IMG/VR virus record: IMGVR_UViG_3300009502_000174
Coordinates: 1-27,006 of that record
Reading direction: 5' to 3' (one strand)
Origin: a virus
Length of the DNA: 27,006 nt
In this document: piece by piece, positions 1 to 25,069 of the stretch
Numbering within the stretch: the stretch's first letter is position 1
Layout of the letters: each line of letters begins with the position of its first letter
Program-made: the position numbers and the translations under genes
Notes under the pieces: model-generated
What the model was told of the DNA's origin: nothing
Seen by the model: the letters and a program-made list of their open reading frames with translations, nothing else
The model's database searches: none

Positions 1-3000
1 CAAGTGGAAGAGGAAGGCACTAAGTCAGGCAATGAGTCAGCACCAAGTAAAGAAAGTAAAAAAGAAACAGTGCAAATTCCTATAGGACATAGCTCTAAAG
101 CAAAGCAAGATATTCCTAGATATATGTATCATGATATTCCTCATGTTAGTCTTGAACAATCAGAGGGTTTAAAAGCTTATGATTTACGAAAAGGCGATAG
201 ACCAGCAGTAGATGTATTTAATAATGTTTCACCAGATGATAAGTTTATTTGGTTACGCCCAGAAAAAAAATATGACAGTTCTGTTAAAGTTGATATGAGT
301 AAATTGACTCCAGAAGATATGCGTATGGCTGGTGGTGAAGCTGAGTCAGTATTACATCATGGTAGTATTCCTGAGAGTGCCATTGTAAGGGAAAAGAAAT
401 CAGAATCTGAGGGGGGTGTGAAAGCAGTTGATCCGCAATCTGTTGAGAGTAAAGGAATTATTTCCCGACAAGTACCTGCGGAAGAGGAGTCTAAGGAAAC
501 TAATAATATTGATACTTTAAAATCTTATGGTGAAAAATTTAATACAGATAAAAAAAATAATATGAAAGTAGCAATGGATGCTTGGATAAAAATGGGGATT
601 CATTCACGTATATTAGATAATAAGATACCACAGTTTATTAGAGATGGAATAAAGAAAAAGGGTTCAGCCTTTCATTGGCAAAATCCAGATACTGGGGTAG
701 ACGAAATAATCATAAACCCTTATTCAAAAAATTGGGACGATCCTAAATGGTATGCAATTCATAATGGATCGGATGGGAATAAATTCTATTCATCGTCTGA
801 CCCCGCCCGCATGTTGTTACATGAGTATGCTCACTATTTATATGGGGATTCCCCCAGTGCAGAACATAATTTTATTAATGATCATCATTTTAAAAGTGTT
901 GTAAAGGAACAAGTTGGTGCATACGCTGCGTCAAATGTAAAAGAATTTATAGCGGAAGTTTATGTCGGATTGCAGACAGGAAAAAAATACTCTGATCAAA
1001 TTATGGATCATTATAATAGCTACAAACAAGATAACTTTCATTACTCAGAAAAAACAAAAGATCATAAAGCCACATTTGATAATTATCTTGCATGGAGAAA
1101 AACTAAAACAAAAGATAAGTTCACATACAAATCTACCAATCGTCCGATATGGATGGGCTTTGGGAGTGTGATTAAACAGGATTACACCAAGATCGATGAC
1201 AGAACATTTACAACTGAAAAAGAAATACCTGAAGAATTATGTGTTACGTTGGAGTTAGAAAAAGTATCAACGAAGGATGCAGACTTCAAAGAAGAAGAAC
1301 ACCCACGTGCTAAAGAAGGTGAGCATGGTGGGGAATTTGTTGCTAAGGGAGCAGGTGGTGGTGGAGCGTCTTCTAAATCTGAAGCGTCCCATGAAAGTAA
1401 AAAGACGGAGAAAATTCAAAAGACACCCAAGAGCAAGTATCTTTACCACGTGACGTTTACGAAAAATGTTTCTAAAATAAAAGAAAAGGGTCTTCTTCCT
1501 TTTCAAACTACCAACTGGAAAACAGGTGAAGGTAAAAGATATGGAGCGGGTGAAGTTTACGCATTTGAAAATGCACATGATGCTGTTCACTGGGCAGCTA
1601 AAATGGATTGGGATTTTAGAAAAGAGATTGGCGGGGAAAGCAAGGGTGGTATCTCTATTGTAAAAATAAAAAACAATGGTGATTGGAAAGAAGATACAAA
1701 TGATCCTCTGGCACACGTTGGTGGAAAGGGTAAATGGTTTAAGAGTGAGTCACGTGTAACACCAGAAGATGTTGTAGAGCACCTTCCTGTTAAACAAGAT
1801 TTGATAAAACGATATATAGCAGAAGAAGACTTGTCTGATGTATTTGAAAAAGAATCGAACGGCAGTGGATCGTCTTCAGAATTACACGAAGAAATTGAAC
1901 CACCTTCTAAAAATGTAATACACCCAGATACTGTTGCTAAGCTTGAAGCTGGCAAGAAACTTAAAATGTATCGAGCTATGCAACTCATTGATGGGAAACT
2001 ATATCCACCTATGTCTGCAATGATAGGAAATAAGTTAAGACCACCTATAGAAATTGGGAAGTGGGAGCAGTCAGTAGAAGCCCCAGAGCTTGCTGATAAG
2101 GAAGGTAAGTTTAAATTAGAAAAAGGCAATAAGAAGACAGTACCAGCAAGATACAATCCGTACTTTCATACATCTACTTCACCACTTAATGATCAATTTT
2201 CGGAGGCATACAACCGACCAAATTTGGTTGTTGTTGAAGTGGAAATACCAGAGAGTGAATTAACAAGTGGCTATAAGGCAGAGAATGCAAAAGATGTAGT
2301 TGGTGAAGTGAATTGGCACTCTGGGGTTGTGAATACTAAATTACCAAAAGAGTCACAAAGGAAGATCATTTTGTCACGTTACTCAAAAGCAATTCGAGTT
2401 GTGCCCGATGATGAGGTGGCTAAAATTATTGCTCCTGCAATAAAGAAGAATAATGTTCCTGTTCCTGAGAACACTATAACACCATCTTTAAAAAAGGAAT
2501 TAATTAAGCGTGGTGTTAATGTTGTTCCAGCTCAGAAGATTGATCGCACAAAGAAAGTAACAGATTACCAATCCTTTTTTGACAGCTTCTTACAAAACAG
2601 AAAAACGATTGATGGGAAATCAGAAATAGCAAAAGCAAGTTATGTGGAGTCCACAAAGGAACGGCAGGACGTAGCGGAGGCTGTTGAGGATGAGGTTGCA
2701 GGTAGTATTGTGAATGCAGAACGCACAGCGGGTAACTCCCCATTTGATATTATTGTCGGCAACATTGCACTGGAGATTAAATCACTTATTGAAACTGATG
2801 TTGAACGTGTGCAGATGCGTAAAGATAGCAGGGAGAATAAAGAAGTTTTCTTAAAAGACAACCCTGATTTAATTGGTATGACAATTCTTGTTGATCGTAG
2901 AAACCCAGAGCCTGTTACAATTTATTTCAAGGAAGGTGTTGGTGCATTTCGTGTCGGCAGTATGGAGAAGATCGAAGCACCATCATTAAAAGAAGCATTG

Positions 3001-3462
3001 CTGAAAATACCATTGATCGGCAGTCATGTAAAAGAAGTAGAGAACCAAATCTTGTTTGACAGCTTCTTACAAAACAGAAAAACAAAGGACAAATTAAGCA
3101 CTATGAAATTTCAAGGATTAGATATCACCATCGAAAATGAAGTAGGATCACAAAGGCATTGGAAGTCAGCTACAGAGGAAGGTGTGATAACAATGAAAGT
3201 GCCCTATGGATATATAAATGGAACGGTGGGGGCTGATGGTGATGAGCTTGATTGTTTTGTCGGCAAGAGTCAGTATGCACCCAGTGCATTTATTGTACGA
3301 CAAATGAATGAGCAGGGGTATGATGAAGAGAAAGTTTTTCTGGGGTTCGATACAATTGAAGAAGCAAAGGAAGCTTACTTACAGCACGTGAATAAGGAAG
3401 CCATCATGGGTGACATCACCGAAATGGCTATGCACTTATTTAAGGCAACTCTTTACAATTAG
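1..3462 (+). CDS. Large multidomain phage head-region protein, 5' end missing (HExxH, ART-like, PD-(D/E)xK-like and InPase-like domains)
   Basis: The frame is open to the left edge, so the start is not visible; 1,152 residues are seen from position 4 (numbering used here). Visible segments: residues 33-130 begin with a YMYH motif and end in GSIPESAIV, resembling a degenerate ADP-ribosyltransferase (ART)/Tpt1-like fold. Residues about 170-390 carry HEYAH (H273, E274, H277), a zinc metallopeptidase signature, with E314 or E318 as possible third ligand. An HPRAKEG linker (433-439) of the type common in phage head proteins follows. Residues 476-605 open with YLYHVT, a second ART/Tpt1-like domain. 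Residues 640-840 contain YRAM (R657) and STS (724-726), which could be an R-S-E type ART. Residues 905-985 hold D915 and EIK (924-926), a PD-(D/E)xK-like pattern. Residues 1034-1152 match the phage InPase-like C-terminal domain (D1078, D1080, D1083). Position before the minor head gene suggests a portal-linked or head protein. Functions are inferred from motifs only. Confidence 0.75.
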   Translation, partial: QVEEEGTKSGNESAPSKESKKETVQIPIGHSSKAKQDIPRYMYHDIPHVSLEQSEGLKAYDLRKGDRPAVDVFNNVSPDDKFIWLRPEKKYDSSVKVDMSKLTPEDMRMAGGEAESVLHHGSIPESAIVREKKSESEGGVKAVDPQSVESKGIISRQVPAEEESKETNNIDTLKSYGEKFNTDKKNNMKVAMDAWIKMGIHSRILDNKIPQFIRDGIKKKGSAFHWQNPDTGVDEIIINPYSKNWDDPKWYAIHNGSDGNKFYSSSDPARMLLHEYAHYLYGDSPSAEHNFINDHHFKSVVKEQVGAYAASNVKEFIAEVYVGLQTGKKYSDQIMDHYNSYKQDNFHYSEKTKDHKATFDNYLAWRKTKTKDKFTYKSTNRPIWMGFGSVIKQDYTKIDDRTFTTEKEIPEELCVTLELEKVSTKDADFKEEEHPRAKEGEHGGEFVAKGAGGGGASSKSEASHESKKTEKIQKTPKSKYLYHVTFTKNVSKIKEKGLLPFQTTNWKTGEGKRYGAGEVYAFENAHDAVHWAAKMDWDFRKEIGGESKGGISIVKIKNNGDWKEDTNDPLAHVGGKGKWFKSESRVTPEDVVEHLPVKQDLIKRYIAEEDLSDVFEKESNGSGSSSELHEEIEPPSKNVIHPDTVAKLEAGKKLKMYRAMQLIDGKLYPPMSAMIGNKLRPPIEIGKWEQSVEAPELADKEGKFKLEKGNKKTVPARYNPYFHTSTSPLNDQFSEAYNRPNLVVVEVEIPESELTSGYKAENAKDVVGEVNWHSGVVNTKLPKESQRKIILSRYSKAIRVVPDDEVAKIIAPAIKKNNVPVPENTITPSLKKELIKRGVNVVPAQKIDRTKKVTDYQSFFDSFLQNRKTIDGKSEIAKASYVESTKERQDVAEAVEDEVAGSIVNAERTAGNSPFDIIVGNIALEIKSLIETDVERVQMRKDSRENKEVFLKDNPDLIGMTILVDRRNPEPVTIYFKEGVGAFRVGSMEKIEAPSLKEALLKIPLIGSHVKEVENQILFDSFLQNRKTKDKLSTMKFQGLDITIENEVGSQRHWKSATEEGVITMKVPYGYINGTVGADGDELDCFVGKSQYAPSAFIVRQMNEQGYDEEKVFLGFDTIEEAKEAYLQHVNKEAIMGDITEMAMHLFKATLYN
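2578..2606 (+). repeat. 29-bp direct repeat, left copy, before PD-(D/E)xK-like cassette
   Basis: This stretch is identical to 3055-3083 and encodes the peptide FDSFLQNRK. The two copies are 477 bp apart, exactly 159 codons, so they are in the same frame. They bracket the PD-(D/E)xK-like segment. Recombination between the copies would remove that segment without shifting the frame. Confidence 0.9.
3055..3083 (+). repeat. 29-bp direct repeat, right copy, before InPase-like domain
   Basis: This is a perfect copy of 2578-2606, again encoding FDSFLQNRK. It lies about 10 residues before the start of the C-terminal InPase-like domain. Sharing at nucleotide level, including third codon positions, points to recent duplication or recombination rather than convergent linker sequence. 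Confidence 0.9.
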
Positions 3463-4377: not shown

Positions 4378-4501
4378 TGGGAAAATAAAACCAAGCGTTT
4401 TTGAATTCATAAGAAGCTTCTCTGCTGAAGGTAAATTAATGACACTTCTTATTCTTTTATTAATGGTTGCTATTATTGTCAGGATACTGGTGGTGATTTA
4501 A
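4364..4501 (+). CDS. 45-residue single-helix membrane protein
   Basis: This short gene begins inside the end of the zinc-knuckle-like gene. Its ATG follows GGTGGGG. It ends with TAA whose last base is the first base of the ATG of the minor head gene (TAATG), so it fills the gap exactly and probably couples translation of its neighbours. The product has a basic N-terminus (MLRNNGKIK) and an uninterrupted hydrophobic segment from about residue 26 to the end (MTLLILLLMVAIIV, then RILVVI). This fits one transmembrane helix with the N-terminus in the cytoplasm. Location among head genes is unusual for a holin, but a small holin or anchor role is possible. Not a family I recognise. Confidence 0.6.
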   Translation: MLRNNGKIKPSVFEFIRSFSAEGKLMTLLILLLMVAIIVRILVVI

Positions 4502-5520
4502 TGTACACTCTTGTTGGCTTCTACGACAGCGGTAAAAAAGAGAAGATAAAAACCAAAAAGGGAACTGTTGCAAAAAAAGCAACAACTGAAAAAGAAGTAC
4601 CAAAGAAGGTAGATCGATTTGCAAAGGTGCGTGCAGTAGAGGCATCTGCATTTGAGAAAACCAAATCAGTTGAAACATTATATGCAAGCCAGCTGGTGAG
4701 TGTAGCGAAACAGATTGGGCAACTCATACAGCGTTACGATCCAGAAAAGCTTGATGATAATATTGAGTTGATCAAAGCCCTGTACAATTTTTCAAATCAG
4801 TTGACAGATTGGGCATTGCAGGTATCCAAGAAAGTTGTTTACCAATTAAATAATAATGATCTTCAGGCGTGGAATAAGCATAGTGAGCGGATGTCAGCAG
4901 GTGTGAGAAGGGAAGTGACTACATTCCCAGTTGATGCCCAGTTAAAAAAATACATGGATGATCAAGTTGAATTGATTAAATCCTTACCGATAGACGCTGC
5001 AAAAAGAATACATAAACTTGTATACAAAAATTTGTATGAAGGTACAGAGCGGGCGAAGGGATTAGCAAACCAGATAATGGAAACAGAAGGTGTTTCCAAG
5101 TCTAATGCGATGCGGATCGCACGCACAGAAATATCACGCATAGGCACTGGGTTGACAGAGGTGCGTGCTGAAAACTCAGGATTGGCTTGGTATATATGGC
5201 ACAGCTCCCATGATATACGCACACGTTTAAGCCATAAATTAATGAATAATGTTGTGTGCCGATGGGAAGAGCCACCGAATCCTGAAAAGTTATTTCAGGG
5301 TCGGAGTGAAGGTAAAATAAAGGTAGGAAAGCCTTACGATTCGTACCATAGTGGCAACACGTTCAATTGTCGCTGTTTTCCCTCCCCTGTAATTAGGATT
5401 AGTGATATCACTTTCCCAGCACAGGTATTTTATGATGGGAAATTGCGTACGATGAATCAAATGCAATTCGCCAAAATAGCAGAGGGTGAACTGGCTTATC
5501 CTGTGTCAAAAGTGGCGTGA
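4501..5520 (+). CDS. Minor head / head morphogenesis protein (SPP1 gp7 / Mu gpF type)
   Basis: A 339-residue protein. The C-terminal third has the layout of the phage Mu F-like domain (PF04233). It carries NAMRIARTEISRI, then WYIWHSSHDIRTRLSH, NNVVCRWEEPPNP, and the closing YHSGNTFNCRCFPSPVI with its Cys pair. The N-terminal half is lysine-rich and helical. Members of this family are minor capsid proteins, often ejected with DNA or bound at the portal vertex, and are usually encoded just after the portal. That supports the large upstream protein being portal-associated. The start overlaps the preceding micro-gene by one base. No deviations from the family are evident. Confidence 0.85.
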   Translation: MYTLVGFYDSGKKEKIKTKKGTVAKKATTEKEVPKKVDRFAKVRAVEASAFEKTKSVETLYASQLVSVAKQIGQLIQRYDPEKLDDNIELIKALYNFSNQLTDWALQVSKKVVYQLNNNDLQAWNKHSERMSAGVRREVTTFPVDAQLKKYMDDQVELIKSLPIDAAKRIHKLVYKNLYEGTERAKGLANQIMETEGVSKSNAMRIARTEISRIGTGLTEVRAENSGLAWYIWHSSHDIRTRLSHKLMNNVVCRWEEPPNPEKLFQGRSEGKIKVGKPYDSYHSGNTFNCRCFPSPVIRISDITFPAQVFYDGKLRTMNQMQFAKIAEGELAYPVSKVA

Positions 5521-5652: not shown

Positions 5653-5880
5653 ATGTTTTTGCACTTATTGAATATTGTTGATGGACGAGTTTGTGATGCA
5701 AGATTTAAAGGAAAAGATGCCCGTTCCGAAGAAGATGATAATATTATGAATTACAATTCAAGTGAATTGGAAACAATGAAAAGAAGGATTGCTGCAAATC
5801 AATCCTCTATATTTTCATTAGCTGAAATTGAAGCTGAGTTGAAAAAACGACAAGCTGAAAAAGAAAGTTTTCAAAAGTAA
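5653..5880 (+). CDS. Small uncharacterised protein before the protease-scaffold gene
   Basis: A 75-residue protein with AGGAG seven bases before its ATG. The N-terminal half (LLNIVDGRVCDARFKGKDAR) is mixed. The C-terminal half is strongly helical and charged (MKRRIAANQSSIFSLAEIEAELKKRQAEKE), suggesting a short coiled coil. It is the first gene after the promoter-like site at 5586-5616 and stops 12 bases before the next start. I do not recognise it. Its position hints at a role in early capsid assembly, but no sequence feature proves this. Confidence 0.6.
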   Translation: MFLHLLNIVDGRVCDARFKGKDARSEEDDNIMNYNSSELETMKRRIAANQSSIFSLAEIEAELKKRQAEKESFQK

Positions 5881-5892
5881 TAAGGGACATTG

Positions 5893-7596
5893 ATGCGATT
5901 TTATACCACTGAACAGTTAAGCCCTAGAATTGCTGAAACACCTGAAGGTTTTTTATGTTGTTACGATGTGGCTATTTGCCGTACAGGTGAAATGCAATAC
6001 AGGGATTCAGAAGTACCTGTTACTGCGAAAAACGGGGTTGTTACTATTAGACGCAGTGAGGAAGAGGTATTTAATGACAAGACTATTGCCTCATTTCTTG
6101 GTAAAAGCATTACCCTTGATCACCCGAATACCTTTGTTACACCAGAGAACTGGCAGACATTAGCACATGGGACGATTCAGAATGTGCGTAGAGGTACTGG
6201 GGAACAGGATGATTTACTATTAGCTGATTTATTAATTACAACGGAGAAAGCAATCGAGCTGGTCAAAGCAGGATTGAGAGAAGTTTCCTGTGGCTACGAT
6301 GCCGAATACTCCGAAATAGAAGAGGGTATAGGGCTACAAAAAGATATTATCGGAAACCATCTAGCGTTGGTAGATAAAGGACGTGCTGGGAGTCGGTGTA
6401 GAATAAATGATAAGAAAACGATCTGCGATCACTGTGGTGATTGTAAAGGAAATTGTAATATTAAACAGGAGGAAGTTGATATGAAATCAAAGATTAAATT
6501 TTCAGATAAAGTGAAGGCAGCAATCAAAATGATTACCGATGCAGCTGCGGAAGTTGATGAAACGGATGAAGAGAAAGCTGCACGTGAGGCTAAAGAAAAA
6601 GAAACACAGGATAAATCACAAAAGGCTAAGGGCAATTTCATTAAGGATGTAGAGGAAACTGAGGAAGAGAAGAAAGCCCGTGAGGAAGCTGAAAAGAAAA
6701 CAGGGGATGCTGAGTCCACATGTAATTGTGCTGAACTGGCAGATCGTATTTCAAAGCTGGAAGAAGTTATTGCCGAGCTTGTGAAGTCTGATGAAGAGGT
6801 TCACGCTGCAATGGATGCTATTATGAAAGATGCTGACGAAGAGGAAGAAACCCCCGAAAAGAAAGCTGAGAAAGCTGCTGAGTTGGCTGAAATAAAAGCA
6901 CGTGAGAAATCAGAAGCTGAAGATAAGAAGAAAACAAAGGATGATGCAGAAGCTGATCAGAAAAAATTAGCGGGGGCTATTACTAATAAAGACGCTGATG
7001 AAACTGAGGAAGAGAAAGTTGCACGTGAGGCAAAGGAAAAAGAAGAGAAGACTGCTGACGCTGAAGAAACTGAAGAAGAGAAAACAGCACGTGAAGCTAA
7101 AGAGAAGGAAGCTACGGATAAGAAAACAAAGGATGATGCTGAATCTGATGCAAAGAAATTAGAGCTTGCTCAGACCGCTGATGAAGATGAATCAGAAGAA
7201 GAGAAACTTGCTAAACAGCAAGAAGCAGAAAAGAAAGAAACAATGGATAGCTGGAATGATATCGCTTATCGTGTTGGATTGCTTGCACCTGAAATGAATA
7301 TTTCCAAGCCGACACAATATCATAAGACAGTTGTTGAAGTAATTAAACGGGAGGCTTTGAAGAGAGCTCTTACTACGGATTCTCAGATGGTAGAGCCTTT
7401 TGTTAAAGTTAAAAATATTAATTCACTTTCTGGTGCACAGTTGGATGCTGCTTTTGTCGGTGCGTCTACGTTGATAGCCAAGATAAATAACACGAAGGTA
7501 CAGGTTGGTCGTGTTAAAGTGAATGATGCTGGCACGCAGGTCGCAACGAGTGTTCGTTCGATTAATGAAACAAACAAGAATTTCTGGAAACGATAG
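5893..7596 (+). CDS. DUF2213-type prohead protease fused to acidic scaffold
   Basis: A 567-residue protein; the ATG at 5893 is preferred over TTG at 5890 because of AAGGGA upstream. Residues 1-175 match DUF2213, a family found just before capsid genes and presumed to be the capsid maturation protease (segments SITLDHPNTFVTPENW, LREVSCGYDAEY, GNHLALVDKGRAGSRC). A Cys cluster (CDHCGDCKGNC) follows. Residues from about 197 form a highly charged scaffold-like region with five repeats of an ETEEEKxAREAKEKE unit and two copies of KKTKDDAE. A less charged C-terminal domain of about 115 residues ends in INETNKNFWKR, typical of a capsid-interaction tail. A strong internal start at 6481 may yield the scaffold alone. 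Confidence 0.8.
   Translation: MRFYTTEQLSPRIAETPEGFLCCYDVAICRTGEMQYRDSEVPVTAKNGVVTIRRSEEEVFNDKTIASFLGKSITLDHPNTFVTPENWQTLAHGTIQNVRRGTGEQDDLLLADLLITTEKAIELVKAGLREVSCGYDAEYSEIEEGIGLQKDIIGNHLALVDKGRAGSRCRINDKKTICDHCGDCKGNCNIKQEEVDMKSKIKFSDKVKAAIKMITDAAAEVDETDEEKAAREAKEKETQDKSQKAKGNFIKDVEETEEEKKAREEAEKKTGDAESTCNCAELADRISKLEEVIAELVKSDEEVHAAMDAIMKDADEEEETPEKKAEKAAELAEIKAREKSEAEDKKKTKDDAEADQKKLAGAITNKDADETEEEKVAREAKEKEEKTADAEETEEEKTAREAKEKEATDKKTKDDAESDAKKLELAQTADEDESEEEKLAKQQEAEKKETMDSWNDIAYRVGLLAPEMNISKPTQYHKTVVEVIKREALKRALTTDSQMVEPFVKVKNINSLSGAQLDAAFVGASTLIAKINNTKVQVGRVKVNDAGTQVATSVRSINETNKNFWKR
6467..6483 (+). promoter_or_regulatory. Internal ribosome binding site and ATG for scaffold-only product
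   Basis: AGGAGG (6467-6472) sits eight bases before an in-frame ATG (6481), right at the junction between the protease-like part and the charged scaffold part. A 371-residue scaffold would result, ending at 7596. This mirrors lambda Nu3 inside gene C. The SD is better than that of the full-length gene. Confidence 0.65.
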
Positions 7597-8256: not shown

Positions 8257-9261
8257 ATGATTACTTACGATAAAATGACTCTCGATTCCACAGGTGCATT
8301 CCTTGTTGGTGAGTTAGAGAGATTAGACCAGACCTTGCATGAGCCACTCGTCAGTGTGACGTGGGGACGTGACATTGATCTGCGAGAAGATGTCAGCATA
8401 GCTGATGAAAGTTCAAGTTACACCAATTCAACTTTTGCAGCTGCTGGTGGCATGAATTCTGGTGGAGTTGGCAAAAGCAAGAACTTCATCGGTAAAGATT
8501 CCAATTCGATTACTGGTATCGCATTGGATATCGGTAAGACCTCCAGCCCCTTGTACCTCTGGGGAATGGAAGTGTCCTATACGATTCCTGAATTGCTTTC
8601 TGCTCAACAGATGGGTCGCCCCGTTGATGATCAGAAGTTCAAAGCGATGCAGTTGAAGTATCAGATGGATATCGATGAAATGGTTTACATCGGTGATTCT
8701 GGTTTAACCAAATATGGGTTGCTGAATTCCACAGTTGTTACCTCTGGCTTCGTTGCTACGAAGACCCACGGTTACACTGAATGGATGAGTGTTGGTTTGA
8801 CCGCTGCTGCAACACCTGCTGAAATTCTGGCAGATGTCAATGCACTGTTGAACTCTTGCTGGAGTGCTTCGGGTTTTGCTATCTGCCCCAGTAAGCTGTT
8901 GCTCCCGCCCGCACAGTTCGCTTACATTACATCACAGACAGTTTCTACTGCTGGTAATGTTTCGATCCTGAAATTCTTGCAGGATAATTCTATTGCCCTT
9001 TCCGTAAATGGTAAGGCTCTGGATATTCAGCCCTGCAAGTGGTTGACAGGTCGTGGAACTGTTGGTGGTTCACCTTCCAATGCTTCTGAAAGAATGGTTT
9101 GCTATACGCAGGACAAAATGCGTGTTCGCTATCCGTTAGTTCCGTTGCAGAGAACCCCGCTAGAATACAGATCGATATTCCATCTCACTACGTACTTCGG
9201 AAGATTGGGGGTACTAGAGGTGGTCTATCCAGAGACACTTTATTTTGCCGATGGCATCTAA
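8257..9261 (+). CDS. Major capsid protein (DUF2184 type)
   Basis: A 334-residue protein with AAGGAG upstream of the ATG. It matches the DUF2184 capsid family (HK97-like fold) in length and in several segments. These are LVSVTWGRDIDLREDVSIADE, then LYLWGMEVSYTIPEL, QLKYQMDIDEMVYIGD, and the C-terminal FHLTTYFGRLGVLEVVYPETLYF. It forms the icosahedral shell and would be the substrate of the upstream DUF2213 protease. Its base composition is visibly richer in GC than its neighbours, as expected for a very highly expressed gene with selected codons. A strong hairpin follows the gene at 9303-9336. Confidence 0.85.
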   Translation: MITYDKMTLDSTGAFLVGELERLDQTLHEPLVSVTWGRDIDLREDVSIADESSSYTNSTFAAAGGMNSGGVGKSKNFIGKDSNSITGIALDIGKTSSPLYLWGMEVSYTIPELLSAQQMGRPVDDQKFKAMQLKYQMDIDEMVYIGDSGLTKYGLLNSTVVTSGFVATKTHGYTEWMSVGLTAAATPAEILADVNALLNSCWSASGFAICPSKLLLPPAQFAYITSQTVSTAGNVSILKFLQDNSIALSVNGKALDIQPCKWLTGRGTVGGSPSNASERMVCYTQDKMRVRYPLVPLQRTPLEYRSIFHLTTYFGRLGVLEVVYPETLYFADGI

Positions 9262-9395: not shown

Positions 9396-10154
9396 ATGAT
9401 AATTTATAAAATAAAAAATAATATCAATGGGAAGATTTACATTGGGCAGACGAAAGGGAAACTGACCAATCGCATTACCATACATATCAGAGATAATAAA
9501 TTTCCTATTGCCAAAGCTTTAAACAAATATGGAATTGAATCGTTTACGATTTCGGTAATAGATCATGCAGACACAAAAGAAGTTTTAAATGAGAAAGAAA
9601 TTTATTGGATAAAAACTTTAGATTGTAAAACACCCAAAGGCTACAACGTCACAAGCGGGGGCTTCGGAACTGTTGGGCGTGTGTGGACTGAAGATCAAAA
9701 AGTGGCACAAGCAAAACGAATGTTGGGTGACAGTAATCCAATGAGTAATCCTAAAACAGCAAGAAAAGTAGCTGAATCTAATATTGGTAGAAAGCGATCA
9801 GATGAAACAAAAATAAAACAAAGTGTTGCTTCATTAGGAAAACCAAAATCAGAAGCTCATTGTGAGAATATATCTAAGGGGCTTATGGGGCATGAAGTAT
9901 CTGATGAAGCTAGAGAGCTCTTACGCATTGCCCATACAGGCACTAAACAATCAGAAGAAACAATTGCTAAGAAAAGAGGAGTACCACAAACCGAAGTAGC
10001 CAATAAAAAACGAAGTGATACAATGGCAAATAAACCTCTTACAGAAGAACACAAACAGGCTTTAAGAAAACCACATAAAATGACAGAAGTTGGAAGAGCA
10101 GCAATTGCACTATCAAATAAACATAGAGGACATCAAGAATACCTTGATGCGTAA
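9396..10154 (+). CDS. Free-standing GIY-YIG homing endonuclease with NUMOD3-like repeats
   Basis: A 252-residue protein. The N-terminal GIY-YIG nuclease domain is clear: IIYKIKNNINGKIYIGQT, catalytic Arg candidate R26, and NEKEIYWIKTLD with E66/E68 as metal-binding Glu candidates. From about residue 98 there are several NUMOD3-type DNA-binding modules (GDSNPMSNP, then SDETKIKQSVASLGK, SDEARELLRIAHTG, SEETIAKKRG, TEEHKQALRKP). The arrangement is that of T4 Seg-type endonucleases. It cuts DNA of phages lacking it and spreads by repair. It is inserted between capsid and downstream head genes, has its own promoter, and is A-rich compared with the capsid gene, consistent with separate acquisition. 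Confidence 0.9.
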   Translation: MIIYKIKNNINGKIYIGQTKGKLTNRITIHIRDNKFPIAKALNKYGIESFTISVIDHADTKEVLNEKEIYWIKTLDCKTPKGYNVTSGGFGTVGRVWTEDQKVAQAKRMLGDSNPMSNPKTARKVAESNIGRKRSDETKIKQSVASLGKPKSEAHCENISKGLMGHEVSDEARELLRIAHTGTKQSEETIAKKRGVPQTEVANKKRSDTMANKPLTEEHKQALRKPHKMTEVGRAAIALSNKHRGHQEYLDA

Positions 10155-11335: not shown

Positions 11336-11866
11336 ATGAGCAAACTTGATTTCGGAATAAAGAATTATGGATTGGGTGTTGCTGCAATTACTTTTGTTGA
11401 TAAAGAATTGCAAGCCGATAAGATTCTTGCTGATGTAATTGCAGAGATAGCAGAGCTTGAATGTCTTGTTGGAATTCCCAGTAAGAATGCAAGTAGAAAA
11501 GATGGGAATGTAAATAATGCCGAATTACTTTTCTGGCATACAAAAGGATCACCTGTTCATGGTTACCCCGCACGTCCATTGATCGAACCAGCACTGGAAG
11601 CAAGTGGAAATAAGGAAAGGATTGAAGAAGATTTGGGTGTGGTGGCAGAACTTGCAATGAAGGGTGATGCAAAGGGAGCAAAAGAATTTTTAGGTATTGC
11701 TGGGCAAGACGCTGTAAATATGATTCAGCTTTGGTTTGATGATCCACGTAATGGCTGGCAACCTGATGCACCTGCAACCATAAAGAGAAAAGGATCAGAG
11801 GAAGTTTTGCGGGATACGCATGAAATGCAGAAGGCAATCACGTATGTTATCACAGGTGCAGAATAA
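11336..11866 (+). CDS. Neck / head-tail completion protein (HK97 gp10-like)
   Basis: A 176-residue protein starting right after the previous stop. It contains a segment typical of tail completion or neck proteins: LECLVGIPSKNASRKDGNVNN, LLFWHTKGSPVHGYPARPLIEPAL, and a C-terminal helical part (NMIQLWFDDPRNGWQPDAPAT). The motif of a target sequence for entry at the neck followed by PARP(F/L) is shared by gp10-like and Mu gpG-like proteins. These join the filled head to the tail. Exact family assignment is uncertain, but context between connector and tail genes supports it. Confidence 0.6.
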   Translation: MSKLDFGIKNYGLGVAAITFVDKELQADKILADVIAEIAELECLVGIPSKNASRKDGNVNNAELLFWHTKGSPVHGYPARPLIEPALEASGNKERIEEDLGVVAELAMKGDAKGAKEFLGIAGQDAVNMIQLWFDDPRNGWQPDAPATIKRKGSEEVLRDTHEMQKAITYVITGAE

Positions 11867-12238
11867 ATGATCAACATGAGTGAAATTATAAAATCCCCTG
11901 AGTTTGCACAGTCCTTTACAGTGATGCGTTCTAAGGGAGAATTTGTTAATGGTAGATGGACAGAAGATACACCAACATCAATTGCAATGTATGGTGTAAT
12001 TCTTCCAGTACAGGGGGTTGATTTAATACAAGCAGCAGAAGCAGATAGGACAAAAGGTTTGTTAGAATTTTTTAGTACACAGCCAATGTACATTACAAGA
12101 CGGGAAACATCCACAATGGAAGCGGGAACGTCTGATACAATAGTTTGGCATGGCAGCACTTATAGAATACATAATATAAAAGATTATTCGGATTTTGGAT
12201 TTTATTCAGCAATAGCAACACGGACGGATGGTGATTAG
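11867..12238 (+). CDS. Small head-closure / neck protein
   Basis: A 123-residue protein. ATG 11867 abuts the upstream stop; ATG 11876 (MSE) is an alternative. The core is beta-rich, with FTVMRSKGEFVNGRWTED near the N-terminus, followed by AMYGVILPVQGVDLIQAAEA, and a C-terminal DTIVWHGSTYRIHNIKDYSDFG. This resembles SPP1 gp16/HK97 gp9-type stopper proteins, in which a small beta barrel closes the connector. The gene overlaps the next by one base. Assignment rests on layout and general fold pattern. Confidence 0.55.
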   Translation: MINMSEIIKSPEFAQSFTVMRSKGEFVNGRWTEDTPTSIAMYGVILPVQGVDLIQAAEADRTKGLLEFFSTQPMYITRRETSTMEAGTSDTIVWHGSTYRIHNIKDYSDFGFYSAIATRTDGD

Positions 12239-12849
12239 TGGCTGATACAGTATTAACGATGGTTCAGTTTGAAGATTTAATACAAGCAGTCACTGTTGAT
12301 ATACTTGGCTGGGCTGATTTATCACCATCAAAAAATAATGATGTGCGGATCGGTTGGTTGAACGCACCAGCTTTTAAGAGAAGTGAAAATATTGTTTTTC
12401 TAAAAGGGACAGAGCAGGAAGGGCAGTATAATAAACAAAGGGACGTGATCAGTGTTGATCGTGTGGTTTCAGTATCACCACCTATATCAATGGTCACGCA
12501 ACGAACAGGATACACACGAATAATGCAAGTTGATTATCTTATATATGGAAGCGACTCCTATGAAAATGCACAGGCAATAAGAGATGGTATGTTTTCTCCA
12601 GATATTCGGTATAGATTAGCGAATCAAAATCTTTATTTGATTCCTAATATGGAAGCACCAAAAAGATCACCAGAATTATTTGCAACACAATGGTGGGAGA
12701 GAACGGATTTAACAATAAGTTTTAATGAATTGGTAATAAGAGAGCCAGAAGTAAATCCGATAGACAGTGCAGAAGTTATCACGCAAAGTGATGTTGGTAT
12801 ACTTTCTGATGTAGAGATAACATCAACATTGGAATCAATAACAGAATAA
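12238..12849 (+). CDS. Neck / tail terminator protein (gp12-like)
   Basis: A 203-residue protein. The GTG start is taken because its G is the last base of the upstream TAG, with continuous coding from there. The layout matches the phage neck terminator gp12-like domain: FEDLIQAVTVDILGW, VRIGWLNAPAFKRSENIVFL, YTRIMQVDYLIYGSDSYENA, and TQWWERTDLTISFNELVIRE. These proteins cap the tail tube and dock it to the head. The last 35 residues are acidic and serine/threonine-rich, possibly a flexible tail. It directly precedes the sheath gene as in DUF3383-type myoviruses. Confidence 0.65.
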   Translation: MADTVLTMVQFEDLIQAVTVDILGWADLSPSKNNDVRIGWLNAPAFKRSENIVFLKGTEQEGQYNKQRDVISVDRVVSVSPPISMVTQRTGYTRIMQVDYLIYGSDSYENAQAIRDGMFSPDIRYRLANQNLYLIPNMEAPKRSPELFATQWWERTDLTISFNELVIREPEVNPIDSAEVITQSDVGILSDVEITSTLESITE

Positions 12850-12865
12850 CGGAGGATATAATATT

Positions 12866-13996
12866 ATGACAGCCCCAGTAAGTTTAAATTTGGACACATT
12901 GATCAACATTACGGAGTACGTTTCACCGCTTGCTGCCCCCAGAGCGACTTTTAACCAGCTTCTGGTTATTGGTACAGCAGGGGGAGCAATATTTGATGTG
13001 GGTGAACGAGTGCGTGAGTATACAGCTGCTGCTGATATGCTTGACGATGGTTTTTTAATTACCGATCCTGAGTATCTTGCAGCGTTACTTTATTTTTCAC
13101 AATCACCTGCACCGACCACATTATGGGTTGGGTACAAAGCAACAGCATCACCTGTTGAATCATACGTTGAAGCAATTACAGCTTGTAGAGCAGCAAACTT
13201 CGAATGGTATGTTGGTGTATGTTTGGATGCACTAACAGCGGATCATGAAGCATGTGCTGCATGGGCAGAGGCAGCAGTACCGACAAGCATATACGCTTTT
13301 ACTACTGATGAAGCTGCGGTAATAACTTCGGCAACAACAGATATCTTTTCAACATTGAAAGGACTGTCTTACAGCAGAACAATTGGACAGTACTCAACTG
13401 ATGATCCTTATGCAGTTGTAGCAATCATGGGTTATGCAATGGGTGCAAACACAGGGCTGGCAAATTCTGCATATACATTAATGTTCAAAGGTGAAGTTGG
13501 AATTGCGGTAGAACAATTAACACAAACACAAGTTGGTTACATTGATGATAAGCATGGTAACGTGTATTTGTCATACGGTAACTATTATAATATTTTCCAG
13601 AAAGGTATAATGGCAAATGGGGTTGACTTCAGTGAGATTCTTCACATGGATATGCTTCGTAATGACATTCAACTTTCAATTATGGATTTGTTGTATGGAA
13701 CACCGAAGATTCCGCAGACAGATGTTGGGCAGACAATGCTTTTACATGCTTGTAATATTTGTTGCCAAGCAGCGGTAAATAGAGGATTTCTTGGTGCAGG
13801 GACATGGACAGGTGTAACAGTATTGAATGTGAAGAACGGTGACATGTTACCGCTAGGTTATGTTTGTCAGTCAGCTCCATATGCAACACAATCACAGGCT
13901 GATAGGGAAGCAAATAAATCAATGCCTATTTACGTGTGTATTAAGTTAAGTGGAATTGTGAAGAGCGTTGTTATCGGAATTTATTTAAACCGTTAG
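12866..13996 (+). CDS. Contractile tail sheath protein (DUF3383)
   Basis: A 376-residue protein with GGAGG ten bases before its ATG. It fits DUF3383 (sheath-like) in length and in key segments: an N-terminal APRATFNQLLVIGTAGG, EYLAALLYFSQSPAPTTLWV, AIMGYAMGANTGLANSAYTL, and a C-terminal NGDMLPLGYVCQSAPYATQS. Sheath subunits stack around the tube and contract on infection. Its presence, followed by a tube gene, is the main evidence that this phage has a contractile tail. No truncation is evident. Confidence 0.85.
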   Translation: MTAPVSLNLDTLINITEYVSPLAAPRATFNQLLVIGTAGGAIFDVGERVREYTAAADMLDDGFLITDPEYLAALLYFSQSPAPTTLWVGYKATASPVESYVEAITACRAANFEWYVGVCLDALTADHEACAAWAEAAVPTSIYAFTTDEAAVITSATTDIFSTLKGLSYSRTIGQYSTDDPYAVVAIMGYAMGANTGLANSAYTLMFKGEVGIAVEQLTQTQVGYIDDKHGNVYLSYGNYYNIFQKGIMANGVDFSEILHMDMLRNDIQLSIMDLLYGTPKIPQTDVGQTMLLHACNICCQAAVNRGFLGAGTWTGVTVLNVKNGDMLPLGYVCQSAPYATQSQADREANKSMPIYVCIKLSGIVKSVVIGIYLNR

Positions 13997-23970: not shown

Positions 23971-24477
23971 ATGAAGCCAATTATTTTAATCGGTGCTGCT
24001 GAAAGAACATTAAGAGATATTGCAAGTTTTGATTTGCTTTGCGACAACTACGACAGCATGGCAATCGGGCTTGATGCAATCGATAAATGTGAATTTCCGA
24101 TTAATTATATAGCGTCATACCACGATGAAGATTTTAAAAAAATAAAAGAAAAATTAAAAACAAAAGGATTTCATAATTACAAACTCATCCACCATAAATT
24201 AAAAGATGGAGTTGATATAGTAGAAGAGCATCTAGCACCATCAGGTAGTTCAGCTTTACTGGGGGCGGTGGCAGCAATTCGATTAGGATACACAAAGATT
24301 GTTTTATGCGGTTGCCCATTAATAGGGATCGCCAGCACCAAGTATGATTATGCTCTGTTTCAAAAAGGATGGGTTCATAGAGAAAAGGAAGTAAAACCTT
24401 ATGTGAAATCAATGAGCGGTTTTATAAAAGAGAAATTTGGTGAACCAACAATTGAATGGATTAATGATGGAAAATAA
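23971..24477 (+). CDS. Rossmann-like protein of the fibre/sugar cluster
   Basis: A 168-residue protein with GGAAG before its ATG. It starts with IILIGAAERTLRDI, a nucleotide-binding-like strand-loop-helix. A second half carries GSSALLGAVAAIRLGYTKIV followed by LCGCPL. From memory this resembles DUF115/glycosyltransferase-like proteins that contain a Ser-Gly-x-x-Ala-rich loop before a strand, found near surface-sugar genes of phages and bacteria. IASYHDEDF (around residue 47) may be equivalent to the HP/HDE-type motif of that group. It may bind a nucleotide sugar. The HNH gene overlaps its last 14 bases but the reading frame looks intact. Confidence 0.5.
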   Translation: MKPIILIGAAERTLRDIASFDLLCDNYDSMAIGLDAIDKCEFPINYIASYHDEDFKKIKEKLKTKGFHNYKLIHHKLKDGVDIVEEHLAPSGSSALLGAVAAIRLGYTKIVLCGCPLIGIASTKYDYALFQKGWVHREKEVKPYVKSMSGFIKEKFGEPTIEWINDGK

Positions 24478-25069
24478 AAATAGAAAACTATGTGCGTGTG
24501 GTTGTAAAGAGCAGGTTACGTGGAATAAGGTTTATAAGCGTTGGAATACATATATTCATGGACATCATATCAGAGGAGAAAACAACCCTCAAAAAGCATT
24601 AGCTGTTAGAGAAAAAACTTCTAAAACATTAATGGGGCATATAGTAACTAAAGAAACATTACAGAAAATAATAGATAAAAGAAAGTTGCAGGTTTTTTCT
24701 AAAGAGGATTGTAAAAAAATGTCTGATTCCCAAATATTGCTTTGGAGTAATTCTGGGGAAAGGAAACAAAAAATGTCAGAAAGAATGTCAGGGGAAAACT
24801 CCCCTAGTTGGAAAAATGAAAAATCTAGTAGGTTGTACTCTGGTGATTTTAGCAACAGGTTGAAAGAAATAATAAGATTCAGAGATGGTAATGTATGCGT
24901 TCTTTGTTTAACACCAGAGTTTAAGCTAAATAGAAAATTAGATATTCATCATATAGACTATGATAAATATAATTGTAGTTCAGATAATTTAGTTTCGTTG
25001 TGCCCATCATGTCATTCAAAAACTAATGGCAATAGGGAAGATTGGCAATCGGTATTTGCTAGTCAATAA
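24464..25069 (+). CDS. HNH homing endonuclease
   Basis: About 200 residues from ATG 24464 (ATG 24467 is equally possible). It starts with a Cys-rich module (KLCACGCKEQVTWNKVYKRW, then IHGHH) of the type found in NUMOD/zinc-binding homing endonucleases, followed by a basic helical linker. The C-terminal part is an HNH nuclease: CVLCLTPEF, KLDIHHIDYDKYNC, NLVSLCPSCHSKTN, where HH supplies the catalytic His and two CxxC pairs hold structural zinc. It overlaps the previous gene by 14 bases and is A-rich. It is probably a mobile insertion into the sugar cluster, not part of its function. Confidence 0.85.
   Translation: MMENKNRKLCACGCKEQVTWNKVYKRWNTYIHGHHIRGENNPQKALAVREKTSKTLMGHIVTKETLQKIIDKRKLQVFSKEDCKKMSDSQILLWSNSGERKQKMSERMSGENSPSWKNEKSSRLYSGDFSNRLKEIIRFRDGNVCVLCLTPEFKLNRKLDIHHIDYDKYNCSSDNLVSLCPSCHSKTNGNREDWQSVFASQ

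Follow-up and report, generated by a model that had tools for sequence, protein, structure and literature searches.

The window analysed here is an entire virus record of 27,006 bases, and probably represents part of a tailed-phage genome. It opens with ORF1 (positions 1-3462, + strand), a multi-domain, or polyvalent, protein of 1153 amino acids, which its gene position and the portals of relatives mark as most likely the C-terminal extension of a portal. ORF1 is open at its 5' side, being truncated at the 5' end of the record (window base 1), and any portal part would be missing from the record. Downstream on the same strand are a MuF head protein (4501-5520; PF04233, E 2e-12), a DUF2213 head maturation protease/scaffold protein (5890-7596; PF09979, E 7e-46; PHROG 530 'head maturation protease'; PHROG 1961, E 6.6e-95) and the major capsid protein (8257-9261; PF09950, E 8e-71). 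Further late genes come after these, among them one for a DUF3383 protein. Within the DUF2213 protein there are six diverged copies of a DETEEEKxAREAKEK repeat, irregularly spaced (6550-7233). Directly 3' of the capsid gene is a GIY-YIG endonuclease gene (9396-10154; PF01541, 3.8e-9), which is likely to be a homing endonuclease, and among the late genes there is an HNH-like ORF (24437-25069; PF01844, 3e-4, slightly below the cut-off), after which come glycosyltransferase- and epimerase-like ORFs.

ORF1 is predicted to be a chain of modules, in the order metallopeptidase-like, ART-like, module D, PD-(D/E)xK nuclease and inorganic pyrophosphatase (InPase), all encoded on the + strand. The first is a zincin-like segment (481-1140), recognised by its HEYAH motif at 820-834 only, and with no match in Pfam. 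It is followed by EEEHPRAKEGEHGGEFVAKGA (1291-1353), a linker of the PRxxxGxF type that is found before modules in many relatives, and by a segment (1381-1800) with weak similarity to ART and RNA 2'-phosphotransferase domains (PHROG 5470, E 0.007; Pfam PARP and PTS_2-RNA, E about 0.06). Module D (1915-2520) is an unnamed domain with a 61% identical homologue in locus L116, this homology ending just before the first copy of the repeat described below. The last module is a type I InPase-like domain (3094-3450; PF18823, E 1.6e-30), whose profile match of 106.2 bits against a gathering score of 26.8 bears out the InPase-like domain that had been proposed downstream of the repeat. With an InPase, a PD-(D/E)xK domain, an HExxH motif and a weak ART match, ORF1 contains several of the conflict-type domains by which polyvalent proteins are recognised.

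The nuclease domain is flanked by a direct repeat. The sequence TTTGACAGCTTCTTACAAAACAGAAAAAC is found as an exact match at 2578-2606 and 3055-3083 (+ strand), the two copies being spaced by 477 bp, or 159 codons, and both lying in the single open frame of ORF1, with copy 1 encoding the peptide FDSFLQNRK. Every other exact direct repeat in the window is shorter. In 60 Markov-1 simulations of the same length and dinucleotide composition, repeats reached 18 bp at most, and the perfect in-frame 29-bp repeat of the original prediction is therefore both exact and far beyond chance. Both copies lie precisely in inter-domain linkers, one on each side of the nuclease domain: module D homology, as seen in the comparison with L116, stops before copy 1 and nuclease homology starts after it, while nuclease homology stops before copy 2 and the InPase starts after it.

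The 29 bp form the exact 3' core of an imperfect 53-bp pair (2554-2606 and 3031-3083) with 85% identity. A pairwise comparison of the 24 bp to the left of the exact core (2554-2577 in copy 1 and 3031-3054 in copy 2, both + strand) gives eight differences. Over the 30 bp to the left 16/30 positions are identical, and identity is at chance beyond this and to the right. That 29 perfect base pairs stand beside 24 with eight differences suggests that the linker DNA has recently been duplicated or gene-converted. An insertion element was rejected, since no inverted repeats bound the segment, and a foreign origin on grounds of composition was rejected, the GC3 of the module (34%) being inside the range of the late genes.

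It could be argued that the repeated peptide is itself functional, as a docking helix, a dimerisation helix or a processing site, and that selection at the protein level has maintained both copies. Copy 2 is indeed predicted to lie within a well-scored helix, its diverged left part being a predicted helix that runs on from the nuclease domain, and loosely similar peptides of the form IIKDYLRSR end head-module ORFs in contigs L010 and L014. However, these peptides were chosen by eye, and the pattern also fits the N-termini of tape-measure proteins. Moreover, FDSFLQNRK is absent from all homologues, no other viral contig carries it in a related protein, and selection on the protein leaves unexplained why every synonymous position is identical as well, so that we regard this explanation as very doubtful. 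A degenerate-pattern search for FDSFLQNRK as a phage motif gave unrelated matches only, and the more specific idea of a docking tag, which came from similarity judged by eye only, was discarded.

The segment between the copies includes PFDIIVGNIALEIKS and, at 2623-3009 (+ strand, residues 875-1003), a PD-(D/E)xK nuclease-like domain. Searched as a single sequence, the segment gave no matches in viral contigs, genome contigs or phages; Pfam, NCBIfam and PHROGs hold no model for it, and there is no sequence match in the PDB. A match to phage WTB that appeared to run across the segment was rejected, since it combines a low-complexity linker with a genuine match in the InPase. Relatives were instead found using a degenerate DNA pattern built from E-I-K-[ST] ... 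G-V-G-x-F-R, which we take to be the signature of the family. It identified six stretches, all six of them encoding relatives, and alignment-based scans then brought the total to 34 IMG/VR loci. Four residues are invariant in the 12 sequences aligned (12/12): the helix glutamate E896 (2686-2688), D916 of a PFD motif (2746-2748), and E925 and K927 of the ExK motif E-I-K (2773-2781), all on the + strand. The last three are those originally picked out as D915, E924 and K926, which are present in the sequence with a numbering that is one too low when counted from window base 1.

An AlphaFold2 model based on the alignment has a pLDDT of 85, where folding of the segment as a single sequence gave 38 and was useless. 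The elements of the model follow in the order H27-43, E47-49, E58-60, E63-70, H82-94 and E99-106, which is the core alpha-beta-beta-beta-alpha-beta arrangement of the PD-(D/E)xK fold. The best match among solved structures is Hjc (VIA Z 10.7, rmsd 2.8 over 103 residues), other matches being the SPARDA nuclease subunits (Z 9.9), RecU (8.2) and DpnI (7.1), and Hjc also takes the top rank in Foldseek (1ob9, E 8e-4). The model thus has the restriction-endonuclease-like fold that the original prediction had anticipated. Together with the intact motif, it gives good support to the segment being a genuine PD-(D/E)xK domain with a complete metal-dependent nuclease motif and predicted nuclease activity. 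The family is new and apparently uncurated, and the phage protein that holds it is of a known kind. A search of 398 genomes from the phylum of G001, run without a positive control, found no prophage with the nuclease domain.

Among the relatives, the nuclease domain ends its protein in 29/30 of the loci parsed, and in most it is preceded by a [HQED]PRxxxG[EKR][FW] linker. The sole exception of the 30 is L107, in which the domain is internal and lies between two such linkers. The domain is carried by portals of the PF04860, PF06381 and Portal_Mu families, by MuF proteins and by an InPase protein, among others; some of its carriers have a His_Phos, 2'-5' RNA ligase or ART domain, and some copies stand alone. 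The family recurs in unrelated phages, on their portals and MuF proteins, and so provides a defined group of DNA nucleases predicted to be carried in the virion.

The relatives also demonstrate that these modules move. L104 and L107 have two modules in common, one of the GGFTV type (42%) and the other the nuclease domain (49%), arranged in opposite order with matching linkers between them. A closer pair is provided by L108 and L110, contigs that are about 95% identical. Their cargo proteins, of which that of L110 lies between the MuF and XkdF-type protease genes, differ by two modules, both in frame: a 414-bp module of L108 is absent from L110, and a module of about 450 bp in L110 is absent from L108. 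The nuclease domains of the two contigs agree fully up to a point shortly before the catalytic D, after which identity falls to only about 60% for the rest of the domain. Cargo exchange, including that of the nuclease domain, therefore happens in nature, and L108/L110 offers a clean example from nature of how nearly identical phages can gain, lose and replace their cargo modules. Since the L108/L110 breakpoint falls inside the nuclease domain, module exchange needs no linker repeat. The cargo proteins are encoded at 1186-4566 in L108 and at 4812-8369 in L110. In L108 a GIY-YIG-like ORF begins directly 3' of the cargo gene, and the MuF gene of L110 (2214-4034) has an intein-splicing-like match (PF14890, 7e-5) in its C-terminal half.

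In the original prediction, the 29-bp repeat was taken to be a domain-swap cassette through which related phages exchange effector domains. The exchange itself is seen, only elsewhere, in the two pairs just described. An active cassette would imply a population in which the 477-bp unit is present 0, 1 or 2 times, with in-frame loss and duplication and with other effectors swapped in. The perfect 29 bp next to the diverged 24 bp would fit such a recent or re-homogenised tract, as would the gain, loss and replacement of modules in close relatives elsewhere, and in L104 a module is bracketed by two other linkers that share an exact in-frame repeat of 16 bp. However, a second phage with the 29-bp repeat was not found, an exact repeat of at least 15 bp bracketing the nuclease domain is present in 0/29 homologous ORFs, and the L108/L110 breakpoint is in no repeat. 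In addition, neither an exact empty site nor another domain between the copies was found in the portal-bearing relatives or the 29 nuclease homologues, a set that does not include close siblings. The alignment of homologues thus produced no relative that lacks exactly the 477-bp segment or has a substitute in its place, counter to what had been expected of a cassette, and we consider an active cassette to be improbable.

Exchange is plausible, and the 29-bp repeat as a cassette device is plausible but unproven. Deletion through the repeat would keep the frame, which is a possibility and not an observation; if active, the repeat would allow an effector within a virion protein to be switched in and out by simple means. 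A DNA-identical linker repeat is unusual, and is known here from one phage. As to its origin, our guess is that linker DNA was most likely duplicated, or used a second time, when recombination joined the nuclease and InPase modules. The relatives compared include neither an intermediate nor an empty site that bears on this origin.

Related contigs were retrieved via the major capsid protein and their portal loci were compared. In these contigs the portal gene is upstream of the MuF gene. The portals have a conserved core and a C-terminal extension of 27 to 697 residues, in which the cargo differs or is absent: the extension in L048 contains an InPase, and most portal relatives have no cargo. 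Two further extensions were named from sequence by eye, that of L007 (2562-5156) as topoisomerase IB-like and that of L010 (3-2666) as pentapeptide repeats plus an ART-like domain. Because ORF1 precedes the MuF, protease and major capsid genes, and relatives have cargo-extended portals in that position, ORF1 is most likely the extended C-terminus of a portal protein. The earlier description of ORF1 as a virion protein is partly supported by its position beside the MuF, head protease and capsid genes and by the portals of relatives; any portal part of its own would fall outside the record. It is worth adding that an N-terminal tag resembling MLLxxLxIxxGRVxxKD is common to otherwise unrelated ORFs between the portal and capsid genes, and is found at 5653-5880 in the window, 5141 in L007, 1612 and 4710 in L009, 2 and 5872 in L011, 944 and 5752 in L014, and 2410 and 4567 in L046. 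It is perhaps a prohead targeting or cleavage signal.

We therefore favour, as reasonably probable, the reading that ORF1 is a polyvalent virion-associated protein, probably a portal extension, with a duplicated linker around its nuclease domain. The available text of Iyer et al. (2017; PMC5512222) describes polyvalent proteins of phages and conjugative elements which, like ORF1, are multi-domain and encoded in the head module, and includes an InPase-portal fusion (BcepF1.124) as well as MPTase and ART domains; neither the PD-(D/E)xK family of ORF1 nor DNA-identical repeated linkers turned up in that text. The Pbunavirus portal (E217 gp19, Epa7) is likewise a portal-type protein that ends in the same InPase domain and has an adjoining MuF gene, but unlike ORF1 it has neither the nuclease domain nor the repeat. 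The MuF polymorphic toxins of temperate phages (PMC5576092) also have C-terminal effectors, in many cases nucleases, on a head protein encoded beside the portal, whereas the cargo of ORF1 is most likely on the portal side and its nuclease is internal. The Tox-REase families of polymorphic toxins (PMC3482391) are effectors of the restriction-endonuclease fold with E, D and ExK, as here; in the available part of that paper, MuF or portal delivery is not given for them, in contrast to the ORF1 family. Finally, the Hjc and RecU resolvases have the same fold and the same E, D, ExK constellation as the ORF1 domain (Z about 7 to 10.7), but are only about 10-18% identical to it, and the ORF1 domain is part of a predicted virion protein.

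With this arrangement, ORF1 would be made together with the head, and its cargo tail would lie inside the head. From that position the tail may enter the host along with the genome, where the nuclease could cut host or competitor DNA and the InPase and ART-like parts could act on metabolism. The main alternative is that the nuclease has a role in packaging, as an Hjc-like resolvase tethered to the portal and removing branched DNA, in the way that T4 endonuclease VII acts beside the portal gp20 (PMC10893049). Both the fold, which is nearest to Hjc and RecU, and the fusions of the domain with portals of three different families would favour such a role. Its neighbours on the same chain are nevertheless enzymes of the cargo type (InPase, ART, His_Phos and 2'-5' RNA ligase), and the domain is also found on MuF proteins and alone. 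Furthermore, the C-terminus of the E217 portal is a barrel projecting into the head, directed away from the motor; that structure was built for residues 97-528 of 765, the InPase-bearing tail not being resolved (PMC10329688). A packaging role is on balance unlikely. A combined version, in which a portal-tethered Hjc-like nuclease family acts in packaging or ejection and is held here in a repeat-bounded unit that is lost or duplicated in frame, varying the portal cargo, has in our judgement only a slim chance of being correct.

In an unrelated contig, L088, several spaced TGGTATAATACACxCATGA elements, which are promoter-like, were observed at 11749-13857.
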